Source: Limnohabitans sp. Rim28
GTDB lineage: Bacteria > Pseudomonadota > Gammaproteobacteria > Burkholderiales > Burkholderiaceae_C
Assembly: GCF_000293865.2 (NCBI RefSeq)
Contig: NZ_ALKN02000013.1
Location: forward strand, 1 to 64,000
Direction: 5' to 3'
DNA length: 64,000 nucleotides
Below the pieces are notes generated by a model. The model searched no databases. It saw nothing but the letters and a program-made list of their open reading frames with translations, and was not told the origin of the DNA. The number at the start of each line of letters is the position of its first letter. Within the stretch, counting starts at the first letter, position 1. The position numbers were made by a program, and so were the translations under genes. Positions 5,813 through 63,695 of the stretch are shown here, piece after piece.

Positions 5813-6612
5813 GCAGCGCGTCCAATCAAGACTTCCAAGACAAAGCGCGAACCTGCGTAAGAAAGCAACAACAAACCTGCGCCGATGTAGAGCACCCGCA
5901 CAGCGCGGCGACCACGCCATCCCCACTGGCTACGACCCACCAACAAGGTGGCGAAAGTCAGCCATGACAACAAAGCGAACACCCGTTTGTGATCCCAACG
6001 CCATTCGGTATGACCTTGGCCATACAAAGCCTCACCAAACAAGGCACCGGCGACCAAGGTTGCCGTCAGCAGCAAAAAGCCTGCAGTGACAAAACGGAAG
6101 GTGAGTCGCTCCAGCGTCAACAAAGGCAAACCGCTGGACCCTTCGTGCGCTTGCCGAATGTCTTGCTCGGTGCGGGTCATCATCCAGGCGTGCACCACAG
6201 CGGCTGCAAACATGCCGTAGGCCGACAAACCCAGAGCAAAGTGCAAAGGCAGCCAAGCCGAGGCTTGGCTGGTCAACAGGGTGCCCGGAAAAAACCAAGC
6301 CAGCGCCACGGTGACAGACCCCAAACAACCCACGGCCCAACGGGCTTTGAATTTGGGGAAAAACTGGGTCTCGATCATGTAAGCCGTGACCACCAACCAA
6401 GCGGTGACCGACAACGCTGGCGCAAAACCGAAGCGCACAGGGCCCATCAAGAGGGCCAGCAAACTGACGGCATGCAACGCCCAAGCCAGCCAAAGGAGGC
6501 GGCGGGCGTGCACATCGCTCAGGCGACTGGGCACCAGAGCGGGCAAAGCATAGGTCAATGCTGCCAATGCCGAGAAGGGCAGCGTCCAGAAAGGCGCACT
6601 CGCTAAAATCAT
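5809..6612 (-). CDS. Cytochrome c assembly (CcsA/YpjD-type) membrane protein
   Basis: 267 residues with about eight hydrophobic segments. The segment near residue 205-220 (HTEWRWDHKRVFALLSW) corresponds to the tryptophan-rich WWD-type haem-handling motif of the CcmC/CcsA family in reduced form. YpjD-like proteins are commonly encoded next to ffh, as here, where the two are divergent. The precise role is uncertain; haem or cytochrome handling is the family inference. There is no ribosome site before the ATG, but TAAACT (6620-6625 read on the minus strand) ends only 7 bases upstream, so the message may be leaderless. Confidence 0.85.
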   Translation of the reverse strand: MILASAPFWTLPFSALAALTYALPALVPSRLSDVHARRLLWLAWALHAVSLLALLMGPVRFGFAPALSVTAWLVVTAYMIETQFFPKFKARWAVGCLGSVTVALAWFFPGTLLTSQASAWLPLHFALGLSAYGMFAAAVVHAWMMTRTEQDIRQAHEGSSGLPLLTLERLTFRFVTAGFLLLTATLVAGALFGEALYGQGHTEWRWDHKRVFALLSWLTFATLLVGRSQWGWRGRRAVRVLYIGAGLLLLSYAGSRFVLEVLIGRAA

Positions 6613-6689
6613 GAAGCCGAGTTTAGCCTTTCGGGCGCAGCCATTGGGGCTTCGCCATCACGCTCAACCGGTTTTTTCTGGATTCCCCC

Positions 6690-53571: not shown

Positions 53572-54174
53572 ATGACCGCTGATTCTGCCTCTATTGACCT
53601 CAAGCATCATTTCCTGATCGCCATGCCCGGGTTGGAGGACGAGACATTTGCCCGCAGCGTCATCTACATGTGCGAGCACAGCGAGCGCGGGGCCATGGGC
53701 CTGATCATCAACAAATCTGCTGACATCAGCATGCGCCACTTGTTTGACAAGGTGGATTTGCCTTTGCGCCGCGAAGATTTGGTGCAAAACCCGGTGCTGC
53801 ATGGCGGCCCGGTGCAAACGGACAGAGGTTTTGTTCTGCACGATCCCGTCCAAATGGCGCCTGCCGACCAAGAACGCGGGCCGATTTTTGCCTCAACCCT
53901 GAGTGTGCCGGGTGGGCTTGAGATGACGACGTCCCGCGATGTCCTGGAGGCCTTGTCCTCTGGCGCTGGGCCCCGCCGAGTTTTGGTCACATTGGGTTAC
54001 GCGTCTTGGGGTGAGGGTCAATTGGAGTCCGAGTTGGGCGAAAACACATGGCTCACGGTACCCGCTTCGGTCGATGTGATTTTTGACGTTCCCCTGGCCG
54101 AGCGCTATGACCGCGCCCTGGATTTGCTCGGACTCAAGAGCTGGATGCTTTCGCCTGAAGCGGGGCACGCATGA
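53572..54174 (+). CDS. YqgE/AlgH family protein (UPF0301)
   Basis: 200 residues. Begins MTADSASIDLKHHFLIAMPG with the family segment LKHHFLIAMPGLEDETFARSVIYMCEHSERGAMGLIIN (in parts to ~46), and GYASWGEGQLESEL (~141). Function unresolved; often in a pyr/ruvX operon, as here. TAAAAT (53560-53565) ends 6 bases before the ATG and there is no ribosome site, suggesting a leaderless message. It overlaps ruvX by ATGA. Confidence 0.95.
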   Translation: MTADSASIDLKHHFLIAMPGLEDETFARSVIYMCEHSERGAMGLIINKSADISMRHLFDKVDLPLRREDLVQNPVLHGGPVQTDRGFVLHDPVQMAPADQERGPIFASTLSVPGGLEMTTSRDVLEALSSGAGPRRVLVTLGYASWGEGQLESELGENTWLTVPASVDVIFDVPLAERYDRALDLLGLKSWMLSPEAGHA

Positions 54175-58183: not shown

Positions 58184-59344
58184 TCAGACCAACTTGACCG
58201 GTTGGTATTTGGGGTCGGTGTGCTCGCAAGCCTCGGCCTTGGCACAAGGCATCTGGCACAGACCCCGGTCGGTGACTGGGCAGGTGCGGTTGAAAGTCAC
58301 CACATGGTCCACTTCGGCGCGAATGCCGATCCACTCGCCCAGCTTGTGGTCGTGGTGGCTGGGGACGTGGGCCATCAACAGGTCACCGCTGGCCAAGCGC
58401 AGGGTGTACAGAAATTCAGAACCACGGAAGGCTTTGCGGATGATTTCTGCCTTCACCGGCGCGTCGTCGTCGTGCACGATGTCATCGGCGCGCAAAAGCA
58501 CGTCGCATTGGCCATCCTCAAACACGCAGGGCAGGGGGCATTCGGCCACATCCTTGAGTTCACCCACAGGGGTGCTCACCCAAATGTGCCCGTCCACCTC
58601 ACGCAGGGTGGCGGGGGTGAACACGCCGTGTCCAATGAAGTCGGCCACAAAACGGGTGGCGGGGCGGTGGTAGAGGCTGTAGGCATCGTCCCACTGGTGC
58701 AGTTGCCCTTCGCTCATGACACCGATCACATCGCCAATGGCAAAGGCTTCAAGTTGGTCGTGCGTGACCAACAAGGCGGTGGCTTGGGCGGCCTTGAGGA
58801 TGTTGCGCACCTCTTGCGCCAAGCGTTCACGCAGGTCGATGTCCAGGTTGGAAAAAGGCTCGTCCAACAGCAGCAGGTCGGGCCGAGGGGCCAAAGCACG
58901 GGCCAAGGCCACGCGTTGCTGTTGGCCGCCTGACAACTCGTGCGCAAAACGTTTGTCAGCGCCGTTCAGACCCACCAAATCCAGCACCTCGGCCACGCGG
59001 TGTTGGCGCTCGGTTTTGCTCAGGTGCGCCAAGCCAAAGCCCACATTGCGGCCCACGTCCATGTGGGGGAACAAGGCGTAATCCTGGAAAACCATGCCGA
59101 TGCGGCGGCTTTCTGCGGGTTCGGTGTGTTGCGCGTCGCTGACCACGCGGTCAGACAGCAGCACTTGACCGCCAGAAACTGGCTCCAGTCCGGCCACGGC
59201 CCTGAGCAAACTGGTCTTGCCACAGCCTGATGGGCCAATCAAAACACCAATGTCACCGACCTTGAGGCTCAGGTTGACACCTTGCACCGCAGGCGAGGTG
59301 CTGCCGGGGTAACGGATGTCCAGTTGGCGCAGTTCGAGAAACAT
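58184..59344 (-). CDS. fbpC: Iron(III)-type ABC transporter ATPase (FbpC-like) with cysteine-rich tail
   Basis: 386 residues. Walker A GPSGCGKTSLL (~38), Q-loop MVFQDYALFPH, signature LSGGQQQRVALARAL (~137) and Walker B DLLLLDEPFSNLDIDL (~157). After a TOBE-like C-terminal region (VLLRADDIVHDDDAPVKAE, ~286), the protein ends in a tail with four cysteines (Cys355, Cys363, Cys367, Cys373; spacing C-x7-C-x3-C-x5-C) that I do not know from FbpC. Divergent from the permease gene by 47 bases; no ribosome site, TACAAT ends 7 bases upstream of the ATG, so the message may be leaderless. Iron as substrate is inferred. Confidence 0.88.
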   Translation of the reverse strand: MFLELRQLDIRYPGSTSPAVQGVNLSLKVGDIGVLIGPSGCGKTSLLRAVAGLEPVSGGQVLLSDRVVSDAQHTEPAESRRIGMVFQDYALFPHMDVGRNVGFGLAHLSKTERQHRVAEVLDLVGLNGADKRFAHELSGGQQQRVALARALAPRPDLLLLDEPFSNLDIDLRERLAQEVRNILKAAQATALLVTHDQLEAFAIGDVIGVMSEGQLHQWDDAYSLYHRPATRFVADFIGHGVFTPATLREVDGHIWVSTPVGELKDVAECPLPCVFEDGQCDVLLRADDIVHDDDAPVKAEIIRKAFRGSEFLYTLRLASGDLLMAHVPSHHDHKLGEWIGIRAEVDHVVTFNRTCPVTDRGLCQMPCAKAEACEHTDPKYQPVKLV

Positions 59345-59350
59345 GCGCTT

Positions 59351-59384
59351 GATTGTAGGCAGGTTGATCTGCGCTCCTACAATC
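59351..59384. promoter_or_regulatory. Symmetric divergent promoter with 9-bp inverted repeat
   Basis: GATTGTAGG (59351-59359) and CCTACAATC (59376-59384) are perfect inverted copies with 16 bases between. Each arm contains TACAAT on the strand it would serve (59378-59383 for the permease, 59352-59357 read on minus for the ATPase), 7-8 bases from each start codon. No good -35 is visible. Confidence 0.65.
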
Positions 59385-59391
59385 CACGCCT

Positions 59392-61023
59392 ATGCTGACC
59401 ACTTTGGCCCGCCGTTTATCGGGCCTTCCTTCCTTGCTCTTTGCCCTGCTGGCGCTGGCCTTGGCCTTGCCGGTCTTGGCTGTGCTGGGCTCGTGGCTGC
59501 AGTGGAGCGGCCAAAGTGCCGACATCTTGCTGGAGATGGCCCGCACGGTGCTGCCCGATTACGCGCTGACCACGCTGGGTCTGTGCCTGATGGTGGCGGT
59601 GGGCGTGACGGTGCTGGGCTTGGCCACGGCGGCGCTGGTCACACTGTTTGATTTTCCAGGGCGCGGCGTCTTTGAATGGCTGCTGCTTTTGCCGCTCGCC
59701 ATGCCGGCCTATGTGGTGGCTTATGCTTATACCGACTTTTTGCAGTTCAGCGGGCCGCTGCAGGTGGCCCTGCGTGAGGCGCTGGGTTTGCAGGGCCGCT
59801 TGTGGCCTGACGTGCGCAGCGTCTGGGGTGCGGCGCTGGTGTTCACGCTGTCGCTGTACCCGTATGTGTATTTGCTGGCCCGCACGGCTTTGGTGGAGCG
59901 TGCTTCAGGCTTGATGGAAGCGGCCCGGTTGCTGGGTGCGCCTTTGTCTCGTCGCATCCGAGAAATTGCCTTGCCTTTGGCCCGCCCGGCTGTGGCTGCG
60001 GGCGTGGCACTGGCCCTCATGGAAACCTTGGCCGACTTTGGCGTGTCCAGTTACTTCGGCATCCAGACCTTCACTGCCGGCATCTACAAAGCCTGGCTGT
60101 CCATGGACAACCGCATTGCAGCCGCCCAGTTGGCCACCGTGCTGCTGGCCGTGGTGGTGGTTTTGTTGCAATTGGAGCAACGCGCCCAAAAGCGGATGCG
60201 CTTCAACCAAGGGCGCGGTGCACGCCAGGGCTCGGCCGAAGCCCAGCCTGTGCAGCTGCACGGCATGCGCCGCGTGCTGGCGTGGACAGTCTGCAGCTTG
60301 CCTGTGTTGCTGGGCTTTGTGTTGCCCGTGCTCATCATGCTCAGGGCCTTTGTGGGGGAAACCACTGAAATGCCGTGGGAGCGCTTTGGCCAATGGGCCT
60401 GGACCAGCTTGCGCCTGGGCGCCATCACGGCGGTGCTGGCCGTGGGCGTGGCGCTGGCGCTGGCATTCAGTGTGCGCACCCGCGCTGATCGCATCAGCCA
60501 AGGCGCGATCCAGCTGGTGGGTTTGGGTTACGCCATACCGGGTGCGGTCGTTGTGGTCGGTTTGCTGTTGCCACTGGGTTGGCTCCAGCAAGTTTGGCCC
60601 GCCTCGTCTGCAGGCGCTTGGATCACGGCCACTTCTTTGGGTTTGGTGTGGGCTTATTTGGTGCGTTTTTGCGCGGTGGCCTTGCAATCTGTGCAAAGCG
60701 GCTATGCGCGCATTCCGGCCAGCCTGGACGATTCGGCCCGCATGCTGGGCGTGACCGGTTGGGGCCTGATGCGCCGGGTGCACATGCCCTTGCTGCGGCG
60801 CACCACCGTTGCTGCGGCCTTGCTGGTGTTTGTGGATGTGATGAAGGAGTTGCCCGCCACCATGGTGTTGCGCCCCTTCAACAGTGACACCCTGGCCGTG
60901 GTGGCTTACCAGTTGGCGCGCGATGAGCGCTTGGGCGAAGCGGCTTTGCCCTCGTTGGCGCTGGTGCTGGTGGGCTTGATTCCGGTGATTTTGCTCAGCC
61001 GGACTTTGCGGCAGCCCTCATAA
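59392..61023 (+). CDS. fbpB: Iron(III)-type ABC transporter permease (FbpB-like)
   Basis: 543 residues with two six-helix BPD_transp_1 halves. Each has an EAA-type loop contacting the ATPase: EAARLLGAPLSRRIREIALPLARPAV (~182, in segments) and DSARMLGVTGWGLMRRVHMPLL (~448, in segments), and the arrangement of a fused two-domain permease is typical of FbpB/SfuB-type iron transporters. No periplasmic receptor gene is in the window. Divergent from the ATPase gene, with which it must act. Confidence 0.88.
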   Translation: MLTTLARRLSGLPSLLFALLALALALPVLAVLGSWLQWSGQSADILLEMARTVLPDYALTTLGLCLMVAVGVTVLGLATAALVTLFDFPGRGVFEWLLLLPLAMPAYVVAYAYTDFLQFSGPLQVALREALGLQGRLWPDVRSVWGAALVFTLSLYPYVYLLARTALVERASGLMEAARLLGAPLSRRIREIALPLARPAVAAGVALALMETLADFGVSSYFGIQTFTAGIYKAWLSMDNRIAAAQLATVLLAVVVVLLQLEQRAQKRMRFNQGRGARQGSAEAQPVQLHGMRRVLAWTVCSLPVLLGFVLPVLIMLRAFVGETTEMPWERFGQWAWTSLRLGAITAVLAVGVALALAFSVRTRADRISQGAIQLVGLGYAIPGAVVVVGLLLPLGWLQQVWPASSAGAWITATSLGLVWAYLVRFCAVALQSVQSGYARIPASLDDSARMLGVTGWGLMRRVHMPLLRRTTVAAALLVFVDVMKELPATMVLRPFNSDTLAVVAYQLARDERLGEAALPSLALVLVGLIPVILLSRTLRQPS

Positions 61024-61095
61024 AGCTTGGGTGGCTTTAGCTGAATCTGTGCATAAGCAAAGAACAAATCAATGGTTTGAAGTCTTCTCGAAAAT

Positions 61096-61139
61096 GGCCA
61101 CAATGTGCTTTTGCCGCATGCAGCGGCTACAGCGTGGCC
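61096..61139 (+). repeat. Compound hairpin before the ArsR gene
   Basis: Outer arms GGCCAC (61096-61101) and GTGGCC (61134-61139) enclose GCCGC-ATGCA-GCGGC (61113-61127). It lies between the permease stop and the ArsR start; no T-tail. Could be a leader structure or weak terminator. Confidence 0.35.
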
Positions 61140-61225
61140 TGCGATGGCTGCCCCAAAAAAAGAAACATCGCCTGGATATTGGACAATTGTGCGAAATCCA
61201 TGCCCATCCAATTGGAAGCCAACCC

Positions 61226-61555
61226 ATGCCCGCCAAAGCCCCAGTTGACGACAGCGTCTTGACCGACTCTGAAGAAGTCTTTGAAAAAGCCGCAGAGGTG
61301 TTTCGCGTGATGTCTGCGCCCATGCGTCTGCGCATCATCAGTGCGCTGTGCAATGCCGAGAAAAACGTCGGTGAGTTGCTGGCCGAAATCGACACCACGC
61401 AGCCCAATATGTCACAGCACCTGAACACGCTTTACCAAGCTGGGGTGGTCGGTAAGCGCCGCGATGGCGTACAAATTTATTACCGGATCATCAATGAGAG
61501 GGTAGTGATGCTCTGTCGGACGGTGTGCGTCCAGATCGCCAGCGAGTCCGATTGA
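61226..61555 (+). CDS. ArsR-family regulator, SqrR/BigR-like
   Basis: 109 residues from ATG 61226 (TTGGAAG ahead; the longer frame reaching 61031 lacks a site and starts in a hairpin region). Winged helix with RLRIISALCNAEKNVGELLAEI (in parts ~35-56) and TTQPNMSQHLNTLYQAGVV (recognition helix). Cysteines at about 41, 96 and 100 (ALCNAE, MLCRTVC) sit where the persulfide-sensing pair of SqrR/BigR-type repressors is found. With the sulfide-oxidation genes downstream this suggests sulfide- or persulfide-responsive control. Confidence 0.85.
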   Translation: MPAKAPVDDSVLTDSEEVFEKAAEVFRVMSAPMRLRIISALCNAEKNVGELLAEIDTTQPNMSQHLNTLYQAGVVGKRRDGVQIYYRIINERVVMLCRTVCVQIASESD

Positions 61556-61640
61556 AAGGCAAGCGTCAGTTTCAAGTCGGGTTTTCACGGGCATGGAATC
61601 GGCTTTGACGCGACTAATATCCATACTTAAGGAGAAACGA

Positions 61641-62051
61641 ATGAAAAGAAATCTGTTGTTGCTGATCGGCCTGTTGGTCACAACCCTTTCCTGGGCCGAC
61701 ATCAAGGTGGTTTACCACCTGAGTGAGGGCATTCCTCAGGCATCTCGGGCGATCGGCAACATCCGCAACCACTTGGCAGCCGACCCCAAGGTCAAGATCG
61801 TGGTGGTCGCCCATGGACTGGGCATCGACTTTTTGCTGGATGGCGCTGTCAACCAAATGGACCAAGCCTTTGCCGGGGGCGTGAGCGATTTGGCCAACAA
61901 AGGGGTGGAGTTTCGCGTTTGCAACAACACCTTGGTGGCCCGCAAAATTTCAACCGACAAGTTGTTGATGGAAGCCAAAGTGGTGCCAGCAGGCGTGGCC
62001 GAAGTGGCCACATTGCAAGCCAAGCAAGGCTATGTTTATTTGCGTCCCTGA
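61641..62051 (+). CDS. Exported DsrE/DsrF-like protein
   Basis: 136 residues from ATG 61641 with AAGGAG ahead (the longer frame to 61593 has none). Signal peptide about 1-19 (LLVTTLSWA). The mature protein resembles DsrE/F-like sulfur-carrier folds: IKVVYHLSEGIPQASRAIGNI, KIVVVAHGLGIDFLL, and the conserved Cys in VEFRVCNNTLVAR (~94). Such periplasmic paralogues occur in sox/fcc clusters and probably handle bound persulfide. Ribosome site and position just before the cytochrome and FccB genes indicate one operon. Confidence 0.85.
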   Translation: MKRNLLLLIGLLVTTLSWADIKVVYHLSEGIPQASRAIGNIRNHLAADPKVKIVVVAHGLGIDFLLDGAVNQMDQAFAGGVSDLANKGVEFRVCNNTLVARKISTDKLLMEAKVVPAGVAEVATLQAKQGYVYLRP

Positions 62052-62100
62052 ATGGGCTGGGTGAAACCAGCAAAGCATTGATTTTTATCGAGGAAAACCC

Positions 62101-62409
62101 ATGAAGATGAAACACCTTTTGGCAGCGGCCAGCCTGGTCGCCGTGTCAGGTCTGGCGCAAGCCCAGATTGATCCCCTGCAGGCGCGTAGCTTGGCCGCTT
62201 CTTGCGCGGCCTGCCACGGCACCGATGGCCGAGCTCAGCCGGGCATGATTTCCCTGGCAGGGTCCAATAAGAATGACATGGTCAAAAAAATGCAAGATTA
62301 CAAAGCCGGTCGCGTACCCGCTGCCACGATCATGCACCAGCTCGCCAAGGGCTACACAGATGAGCAAATCGAAGCCATTGCGGTTTATTTTGCAGCCCAA
62401 AAACGATAA
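62101..62409 (+). CDS. Monohaem cytochrome c (c553/FccA-type)
   Basis: 102 residues, signal peptide about 1-22 (SGLAQAQ), then one haem site CAACH (residues 35-39) and a likely axial Met at about 49 or 76 (QPGMISLAG or IMHQLA). Small cytochrome of the c553 type; given that FccB is encoded 11 bases later, it is probably the electron-accepting subunit of the flavocytochrome c sulfide dehydrogenase. Confidence 0.9.
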   Translation: MKMKHLLAAASLVAVSGLAQAQIDPLQARSLAASCAACHGTDGRAQPGMISLAGSNKNDMVKKMQDYKAGRVPAATIMHQLAKGYTDEQIEAIAVYFAAQKR

Positions 62410-62420
62410 GGAAAACTGTC

Positions 62421-63695
62421 ATGCAACGTCGTCATTTTTTACAAACCGGCTCCGCTTTGGGTGCCATGGGCATGGTTTCGGGTTGCGCCACCATCGGTGG
62501 CGGCAGTGGGCCTAAAGTGGTGGTCATCGGTGGCGGTTATGCCGGCGCCACGGCAGCCAAATACTTGCGCATGTGGTCGGACCACAAAATCCAGGTCACC
62601 CTGGTTGAGCCCAATAATGCCTTCATCTCTTGCCCCATCTCCAACTTGGTGCTCGGCGGCAGCAAGACGATGGCCGACATCACCACCCCCTATGACAACC
62701 TGACCAAGCGCCACGGCGTCAAGATCATCCAGGACCGCGTCAACACCATTGACGCCGACAAGCGCATCGTTAAATTGGCGGGCGGCACTGAGCTGAGCTA
62801 TGACCGCCTGATCGTTTCGCCCGGTGTGGACTTCATGTGGGAGACCTTGCCCGGCATGAACCGTGCTGGCGCCAAAGAGCAAGTGATGCACGCCTGGAAG
62901 GCGGGCGAGCAAACCCTGACCCTGCGCAAGCAACTTGAAGCCATGCCCGATGGCGGCGTGTTTGCCATGTCCATTCCCTTGGCGCCTTACCGCTGCCCTC
63001 CCGGCCCTTACGAGCGCGCCTGCCAGGTGGCCGACTATTTCACCAGAGCCAAACCCAAGAGCAAGGTCTTGATTTTGGACGCCAACGACGACGTCACCTC
63101 TAAGCCTGCTTTGTTCAAGAAGGCTTGGACCGACCGCTACAAAGGCATCATCGAGTACCGCAGCAAGCACAACGTGACCGATGTGGATGTGGCCAACAAG
63201 ACCTTGAAGTTCGAGTTCAACGAAGACGTCAAGGCCAGTGTGCTGAACGTGATTCCTTCCATGCGTGCGGGTGACATCGCTGTGAACGCAGGCTTGGCCA
63301 CCGCCAACAAACGCTGGTGCGAAGTGGACTTCTTGACGTTTGAGTCGAAAGCCGCCAAGAACGTGCATGTGTTGGGCGATTCGATCCAAGTCGCTCCTTT
63401 GATGCCCAAGTCTGGCCACATGGCCAACCAACATGGCAAGACCTGCGCGGCAGCGGTCATTGCTTTGTTGATGGACAAACAGGTCAACAACATGCCTGTC
63501 TACAACAACACCTGCTACAGCTTTGTCAGCAGCAAAGACGTGGTTCATGTGGCCAGCGTGCACCGCTACGATGCCGAGAGAAAGACCATGCTGACCGTGC
63601 CCGGCTCGGGCGGCGTTTCGAGCGCTGCCAATGAGCTGGAAGGCATCTACGCCTTGTCTTGGGCGCAAAACATCTGGGCCGATATACTGGCTTGA
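62421..63695 (+). CDS. fccB: Flavocytochrome c sulfide dehydrogenase, flavoprotein subunit
   Basis: 424 residues. Twin-arginine signal with lipobox-like end (MQRRHFLQTGSALGAMG then MVSGCA), FAD Rossmann motif VVIGGGYAGATAAKYL (~34), and the redox cysteine FISCPISNLVLGG (~71), with PYRCPPGPYERACQ (~190) and NTCYSF (~360) as partner cysteine regions. Oxidises sulfide to sulfur/polysulfide in the periplasm and passes electrons to the cytochrome subunit encoded upstream. Followed by a terminator. Confidence 0.92.
   Translation: MQRRHFLQTGSALGAMGMVSGCATIGGGSGPKVVVIGGGYAGATAAKYLRMWSDHKIQVTLVEPNNAFISCPISNLVLGGSKTMADITTPYDNLTKRHGVKIIQDRVNTIDADKRIVKLAGGTELSYDRLIVSPGVDFMWETLPGMNRAGAKEQVMHAWKAGEQTLTLRKQLEAMPDGGVFAMSIPLAPYRCPPGPYERACQVADYFTRAKPKSKVLILDANDDVTSKPALFKKAWTDRYKGIIEYRSKHNVTDVDVANKTLKFEFNEDVKASVLNVIPSMRAGDIAVNAGLATANKRWCEVDFLTFESKAAKNVHVLGDSIQVAPLMPKSGHMANQHGKTCAAAVIALLMDKQVNNMPVYNNTCYSFVSSKDVVHVASVHRYDAERKTMLTVPGSGGVSSAANELEGIYALSWAQNIWADILA

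Follow-up and report, generated by a model that had tools for sequence, protein, structure and literature searches.

The closest described counterparts of the locus reported here are the TA-led genes of Zheng et al. (2011), which carry a TANNNT hexamer about 12 bp upstream of the start codon that was read as a -10 element. In the part of that article accessible to us, such genes are reported from 9 of 71 beta-Proteobacteria genomes, at an average of 6.8% (PMC3160421). Experimental maps exist for two members of the wider group. The promoters mapped in Burkholderia cenocepacia have the -10 consensus TAnAAT, and 114 transcripts of this organism, including 24 tRNAs, start at or within 10 nt of an annotated start (PMC4603805). 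In Cupriavidus metallidurans, leaderless starts account for 4.67% of primary transcription start sites (PMC7563307). A different kind of compact divergent element is found in the bidirectional promoters of E. coli described by Warman et al., whose divergent starts lie mostly 18 bp apart, with separations of 10 and 23 bp also common (PMC12825309). Our literature search, which took in few subscription journals, returned nothing pairing 'leaderless' with Comamonadaceae or Limnohabitans, and nothing pairing 'Fur box' with Comamonadaceae.

We analyzed a stretch of 64,000 nt from Limnohabitans sp. Rim28 (hereafter the window), in which two genes of a probable ferric-iron importer diverge from a 47-nt gap that holds an outward-facing TACAAT hexamer close to each start codon. 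The locus is a clear case of an already known gene-start type. It shares its box with the TA-led genes; what differs from the published description, as far as accessible, is that two such starts diverge here across only 47 bp and that the arrangement can be traced through about 150 related loci (PMC3160421). The leaderless mRNAs of B. cenocepacia and C. metallidurans were measured, whereas those of this locus are predicted, and the accessible portions of the two reports make no mention of an iron importer among them (PMC4603805, PMC7563307). With the E. coli bidirectional promoters the locus has in common a short symmetric region, outward transcription and probable competition between polymerases, but the starts predicted here are about 45-48 bp apart, rather than 18, 10 or 23 bp, and the two boxes are separable (PMC12825309).

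Results

The gap (59345-59391) separates a gene for an fbpC-like ATPase subunit of 386 aa (58184..59344, minus strand), with ABC_tran and TOBE_2 domains, from one for an fbpB-like fused permease of 543 aa (59392..61023, plus strand), in which Pfam recognizes two BPD_transp_1 stretches. Both ATGs (59344 and 59392) are the earliest possible starts of their reading frames, and in 155 of 156 loci the alignment of the relative to fbpC starts at the first residue. ATPase and permease contain the Pfam domains expected of an FbpABC-type importer. The best solved relatives of the ATPase include the iron ABC transporter ATPase 9j4r and FbpC (3fvq), as well as sugar and polyamine ABC ATPases, and no NCBIfam model reached its cut-off for the importer genes among the matches listed (for the ATPase, the best 25 of 186). 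The two proteins are probably parts of a ferric-iron ABC importer. Unlike in FbpABC-type importers, fbpB and fbpC diverge instead of forming one operon and the fbpA homologue sits on another contig. This homologue (C1:348792, L275; genome of 3.41 Mb in 67 contigs) is 85% identical to the binding protein of a congener, which in turn is close to solved FbpA-type iron-binding proteins. A PF13343 search of the genome returned two other binding proteins on contig C4 and missed the FbpA relative on C1. The nearest named relatives at the fbpBC locus belong to Limnohabitans, uncultured Comamonadaceae or Burkholderiales. Downstream of fbpB, the region 61031-63695 (plus strand) encodes an ArsR/SmtB-family regulator, a frame with no family match, a small protein resembling cytochromes, and a flavoprotein with a sub-threshold hit to a sulfide quinone reductase model; judging by these frames, it is possibly a sulfide-oxidation cluster.

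An initial sequence-only reading of the window had described a perfect 9-bp inverted repeat with a TACAAT -10 element in each arm, 7-8 bases from each ATG, and this description proved accurate. The left arm, GATTGTAGG (59351..59359), pairs over 9 of 9 bp with the right arm, CCTACAATC (59376..59384), and the arms are 16 nt apart. The left one holds the predicted -10 hexamer of fbpC (59352..59357, minus strand), 7 nt from its ATG; the right one holds that of fbpB (59378..59383, plus strand), 8 nt from its ATG. A weak -35-like TAGGCA (59356..59361, plus strand) lies 16 nt upstream of the fbpB hexamer and overlaps that of fbpC; it is a consensus match only (9 of 12; 0.1 expected from shuffles). 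The same reading had proposed a search for the repeat near other iron genes. A genome-wide search for ATTGTAG-N3-33-CTACAAT returned this place alone in 3.41 Mb (reversed control, 0).

The claim that neither gene has a ribosome site was borne out insofar as no clear Shine-Dalgarno (SD) sequence precedes either. We calculated the pairing energy of the 22 nt upstream of each start with an anti-SD tail. The value was +1.9 for fbpB and +0.3 for fbpC; of 378 called genes, 0.3% pair more weakly than the former and 13% more weakly than the latter. Called starts have a median of -3.0 and gene interiors one of -2.9 (90% point -0.2, 95% point +0.4), and since the medians are nearly equal, the measure is a blunt one that discriminates poorly. 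Still, SD pairing at the two starts is weaker than at about nine in ten starts or interiors.

A sample of 464 kb (about 14% of the genome), called with a home-made gene caller and excluding the two genes of this locus, was used to place these starts in context. Upstream of ATG genes, TANNNT peaks at a spacer of 6, with 13 cases in 285 genes against 1.38 per position (p 2.8e-9), compared to 9 in 2947 at internal ATGs. Summed over spacers 5-9 there were 19 cases against about 7 expected, an excess of about 4% of the sampled ATG genes, which is similar to the published 4.67% and 6.8% in the parts of those reports accessible to us (PMC7563307, PMC3160421). The spacers of 7 and 8 at this locus are one and two above the genome-wide mode. 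TACAAT-N5-9-ATG occurs at 24 sites in the genome, two of them at this locus (reversed control, 3), and TACAAT-N12-16-ATG at 7 (reversed control, 4). An ORF of at least 60 aa is opened by 19 of the 24 former sites (17 of 22 without this locus), against a background of 38% for ATGs, and several of them we take, by eye, to resemble the starts of SerS, LeuS, DnaE and PurB. At one further site within the window (30488, minus strand), TACAAT lies 6 nt ahead of the ATG of a 393-aa ORF, with a TCCT in front of it, which resembles the setting of the arms in the second Limnohabitans clade considered below.

The suggestion that leaderless starts may be common here accordingly holds only in so far as such starts form a minority class, at about 4% of the ATG genes sampled. 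The two genes offered for comparison differed in quality. A yqgE/AlgH-like gene (PF02622) does show the spacing, with TAAAAT 6 nt from the ATG at 53572. The gene near 6620 has TAAACT 7 nt from its ATG at 6612 (minus strand), but the coding score favors a start 18 codons further in, which makes it the weaker example. No leaderless peak was seen in five other genomes of the family (80 kb each, 229 ATG genes in all), where spacers 5-9 gave 8 cases against about 6; the sample is too small to decide the matter, yet the result speaks against generality, so that any case for a wider occurrence has to be made from this locus and published work.

Related loci were compared in two rounds. The first began with 112 loci, from which we dropped one without a permease (L002), a copy of the window locus (L083) and 4 duplicates, leaving 106. 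The enlarged comparison comprised 179 loci, 69 of them additional loci of the genus, and was reduced to 156 by removing 19 duplicates and four loci with an unreadable fbpC match (L156, L172, L200, L209). A genus-wide search gave a match in 89 of 90 genomes and contributed 29 new loci and 40 fetched 5' regions; the matches left out were mostly fragments or paralogues, as well as G176 (with a stop), G183, G175 and G204. We distinguish the window's clade (45 distinct loci, with permeases 81% or more identical), a second Limnohabitans clade (17 loci, hand-picked from the sequences) and the remaining 94 loci, which still include some lower-identity genomes labelled Limnohabitans or assigned to the same genus. 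The loci share descent, hence the counts below are not counts of independent events.

The divergent fbpC/fbpB pair is widely retained in the family, and its most constant feature is found on the fbpC side. TAnAAT lies 6-9 nt from the fbpC ATG in 99 of the 106 loci of the first comparison (two others have it at 15 and 23 nt, five lack it within 25 nt) and in 148 of the 156 loci of the enlarged one. Within the window's clade the box is at 6-7 nt in 44 of 45 loci; the 45th (L158), in which two overlapping hexamers led to a scored spacer of 2 while ATTGTA is also present at 7, was tallied outside the 6-9 range. All 148 fbpC starts with a box are ATG, compared to 290 of 378 called genes. The search pattern fixes the other five bases of the hexamer; its third base is C in 78, G in 18 and A in 5 of 101 cases, the same degenerate position as in the TAnAAT of B. 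cenocepacia, to judge from the accessible part of that study (PMC4603805). With this box spacing and an AUG lacking a clear SD sequence, fbpC has the features of a TA-led gene, and the comparative evidence makes its predicted leaderless start well supported.

For fbpB, leaderless spacing is characteristic of the window's clade. There, 37 of 45 loci, among them 19 of 27 with an expanded gap, have TACAAT 7-10 nt ahead of the ATG of fbpB, whereas TAnAAT at 4-11 nt was found in 0 of 17 loci of the second Limnohabitans clade and 6 of the 94 others. In the window the box is 8 nt from the AUG and no clear SD sequence is evident, again the features of a TA-led gene, and these counts provide good support for a predicted leaderless start of fbpB within the clade. 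In five further loci (L009, L011, L186, L192, L198) TACAAT lies 5 nt ahead of an ATG that opens an 8-codon frame, the TGA of which overlaps the fbpB ATG (TGATG); an AUG thus follows the fbpB-side box within 5-10 nt in 42 of the 45 loci. Two of these minicistrons (L009 and L011) encode an identical peptide with three codons differing synonymously, and the other three (L186, L192, L198) have in common only Met-Thr and their length. Their placement suggests that the minicistron is probably leaderless and coupled to the permease, and the arrangement may have been inherited from a common ancestor of the five loci. The three loci that complete the clade (L033, L187, L189) have 28 nt between box and fbpB, with neither a leaderless fbpB nor an 8-codon minicistron, and in L187 a 4-codon frame begins 14 nt past the box. 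Taken together, the boxes of fbpC (148 of 156) and fbpB (37 of 45, plus five minicistrons) lend support, as a prediction, to the mirrored leaderless starts first proposed for this gap.

The distance between the two hexamers, by comparison, ranges from 6 to 294 nt among the relatives. Of the 45 loci in the window's clade, 18 (the window's own included) have a distance of 20 nt and the other 27 one of 32 to 294 nt. The second Limnohabitans clade shows 43-45 nt, and 49 of the 94 loci in neither clade show 6 nt. In the expanded loci, the conserved columns are limited to CAACCTGCC-TACAAT-C at the fbpC end and, roughly, GGCTnC-TACAAT-A at the fbpB end. No conserved -35 element emerged from them, upstream positions mostly scoring below 0.7 bit in column conservation. 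To judge from these comparisons, each arm is tied to its own gene. By eye, the gaps of L165, L179, L183 and L185 contain stretches that resemble dispersed repeats and recur between species, among them CCCGGGTCTTCGCCCGGGGTGAC, common to the expanded gaps of L179 and L183; a repeat scan of two expanded gaps gave nothing useful.

Fur-like sites were scored against a 19-position Fur consensus, and a half-site was sought in the 45 nt inward from the fbpC -10. Outside the two Limnohabitans clades, 69 of 87 loci contain a ATTCTCATT-like half-site, which usually continues on from the fbpB-side hexamer; the Fur-like box overlaps that hexamer region. The best Fur match in these loci is 10-13 of 19 in 76 of 87, compared to 7-9 in 117 of 149 random stretches of the same loci. 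The half-site was found in none of the 45 loci of the window's clade and none of the 17 of the second Limnohabitans clade. Best matches in the former are 6-9 of 19 (7-8 in 38 of 45), which is the random level, and in the latter 8-9, once 11. The fbpBC promoters of the window consequently lack the box expected of Fur-regulated genes. All five relatives searched, one of them from the same genus, have palindromic forms of this half-site. Of seven such sites inspected by eye, three lie ahead of frames resembling TonB-dependent receptors, a fourth ahead of a frame like FeoB and a fifth ahead of an FbpA-type binding protein, with nothing clear at the remaining two. No palindromic form was found in the genome studied here. 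A strict Fur pattern likewise gave no hit in this genome, a misleading result, as the region upstream of its fbpA holds a Fur-like box, GATAATGATTCGCATTTGG, matching 13-14 of 19 positions of the Fur consensus. Since fbpBC lacks a Fur box and fbpA has one, it is likely that fbpBC was once under Fur control and has since lost it, whereas fbpA has retained it.

Directly upstream of the fbpC -10 lies a conserved 9-bp block, CAACCTGCC (59358..59366, minus strand), with 1.1-1.8 bits per position in the 27 expanded-gap loci, compared to 0-0.7 in the 29 positions further upstream. The 16-mer made up of this block and the -10 has no other genome site at 0-2 mismatches, which argues that the block is not a general part of promoters, while a single site is no proof of an operator. 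Allowing 3 mismatches adds 27 sites (reversed control, 11). Five of these, which keep much of the box, were read in context: one (L241, C8:164579) is the leaderless-type start of a 486-aa ORF, by eye similar to TldD, and none of the five genes resembled an iron-uptake gene by eye.

Discussion

We propose that the inverted repeat very probably consists of two outward-facing -10 elements of the sigma-70 type that give rise to leaderless or near-leaderless messages on both sides. RNA polymerase would melt each TAnAAT box and start RNA synthesis about 6-8 nt downstream, which would place the first nucleotide at the A of each ATG or no more than one or two bases from it. With starts at the ATGs, both genes would give leaderless or nearly leaderless messages, and ribosomes would engage the 5' AUG without an SD site, presumably by initiation of the 70S type. 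The arms would be alike because both are the same promoter box, and not because they form a palindrome for one protein. In the 47-bp version the two polymerases are probably mutually exclusive, given predicted starts only about 45-48 bp apart.

The two-promoter arrangement could be accompanied by a dedicated regulatory site. The CAACCTGCC block may be a candidate operator or an extended promoter element, and we tentatively consider, as an addition to the two promoters, that in the window's clade it is the putative operator of a regulator that took the place of the Fur box. Its columns are conserved in the 27 expanded-gap loci and those of the upstream flank are not; it occupies the spot of the Fur-like box of 69 of 87 outside loci, a box seen in 0 of 45 and 0 of 17 loci inside the two clades; and together with its -10 it has no close second copy in the genome. 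Against this, a lone site reveals no regulon, no candidate protein has emerged, and the block could reflect an extended -10 or a spacer preference of the fbpC promoter. In a bolder version, which we consider unlikely, the iron switch of this locus has been rewired, with the Fur box gone at fbpBC in both Limnohabitans clades and, in the window's clade, fbpB made leaderless and a new regulator reading CAACCTGCC. The common form outside the Limnohabitans clades would then be a Fur box spanning the gap between the two -10s, of which the fbpC one is leaderless; the box would have been lost at fbpBC but retained by the distant fbpA homologue of this genome, and CAACCTGCC would carry the replacement control.

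A more conventional explanation is that both genes have ordinary leaders, with promoters inside the opposite gene, and that the boxes near the ATGs are not promoters at all. A gap of 47 nt can push promoters into neighboring genes, and on the fbpB side 88 of the 94 remaining loci lack TAnAAT at 4-11 nt from the ATG. However, ordinary leaders would be at odds with the lack of a clear SD sequence at either gene and with the invariable ATG of fbpC starts that have a box. In addition, the boxes follow their genes in gaps of up to 322 nt (L183), and the arrangement of box and ATG is enriched genome-wide. We therefore regard upstream promoters as very improbable.

The repeat had also been suggested as a possible regulator site, and a palindromic operator at which one dimeric regulator controls both genes, with the likeness to -10 elements being secondary, has some observations in its favor. 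The 9-bp repeat is perfect and found in one place in the genome, some relatives have longer repeats of up to 13 bp, and the likeness of the arms within a locus slightly exceeds that of within-group shuffles (7, 55 and 10 of 500 reach the observed value). This excess is small, though (for the window's clade, 8.31 bp compared to 8.08 bp), and kinship could suffice to explain it. Moreover, the third base of the hexamer differs between the arms in 28 of 94 pairs. Such an operator should keep a constant spacing between its half-sites, and arms that lie anywhere between 6 and 294 nt apart rule out one of fixed spacing. Since this distance varies while each arm tends to hold its distance to its own ATG, the comparison favors two outward -10 elements over an operator of fixed geometry; the repeat as a unit finds no support as a regulator site when its arms drift apart freely, and we give the single-operator explanation very little credence. 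A strict bidirectional promoter, one pseudo-symmetric element with overlapping -10s on both strands, would suit the symmetry, the outward orientation, the hexamers just 6 nt apart in 49 of 94 loci and a 47-bp gap probably too short for two simultaneous polymerases, but is highly improbable, as its elements separate in relatives, the expanded loci lie far beyond published spacings and the predicted start separation of about 45-48 bp compares with mostly 18 bp in the accessible part of the published work (PMC12825309).

Taking the locus as two separable outward promoters, its relatives present an informative series. Across about 150 loci the gap grows, shrinks and loses its Fur-like box, while the distance from the fbpC -10 to the ATG stays fixed. 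At the level of sequence comparison, this fixed spacing is good evidence that leaderless initiation is lastingly selected at particular betaproteobacterial genes. If the rewired iron switch were true, the iron response of these bacteria would depend either solely on the binding protein or on the translation of leaderless messages, and in some members a leaderless 8-codon minicistron would feed fbpB. The set of loci thus offers natural variants for studying the interplay of leaderless starts, divergent promoters and iron control.
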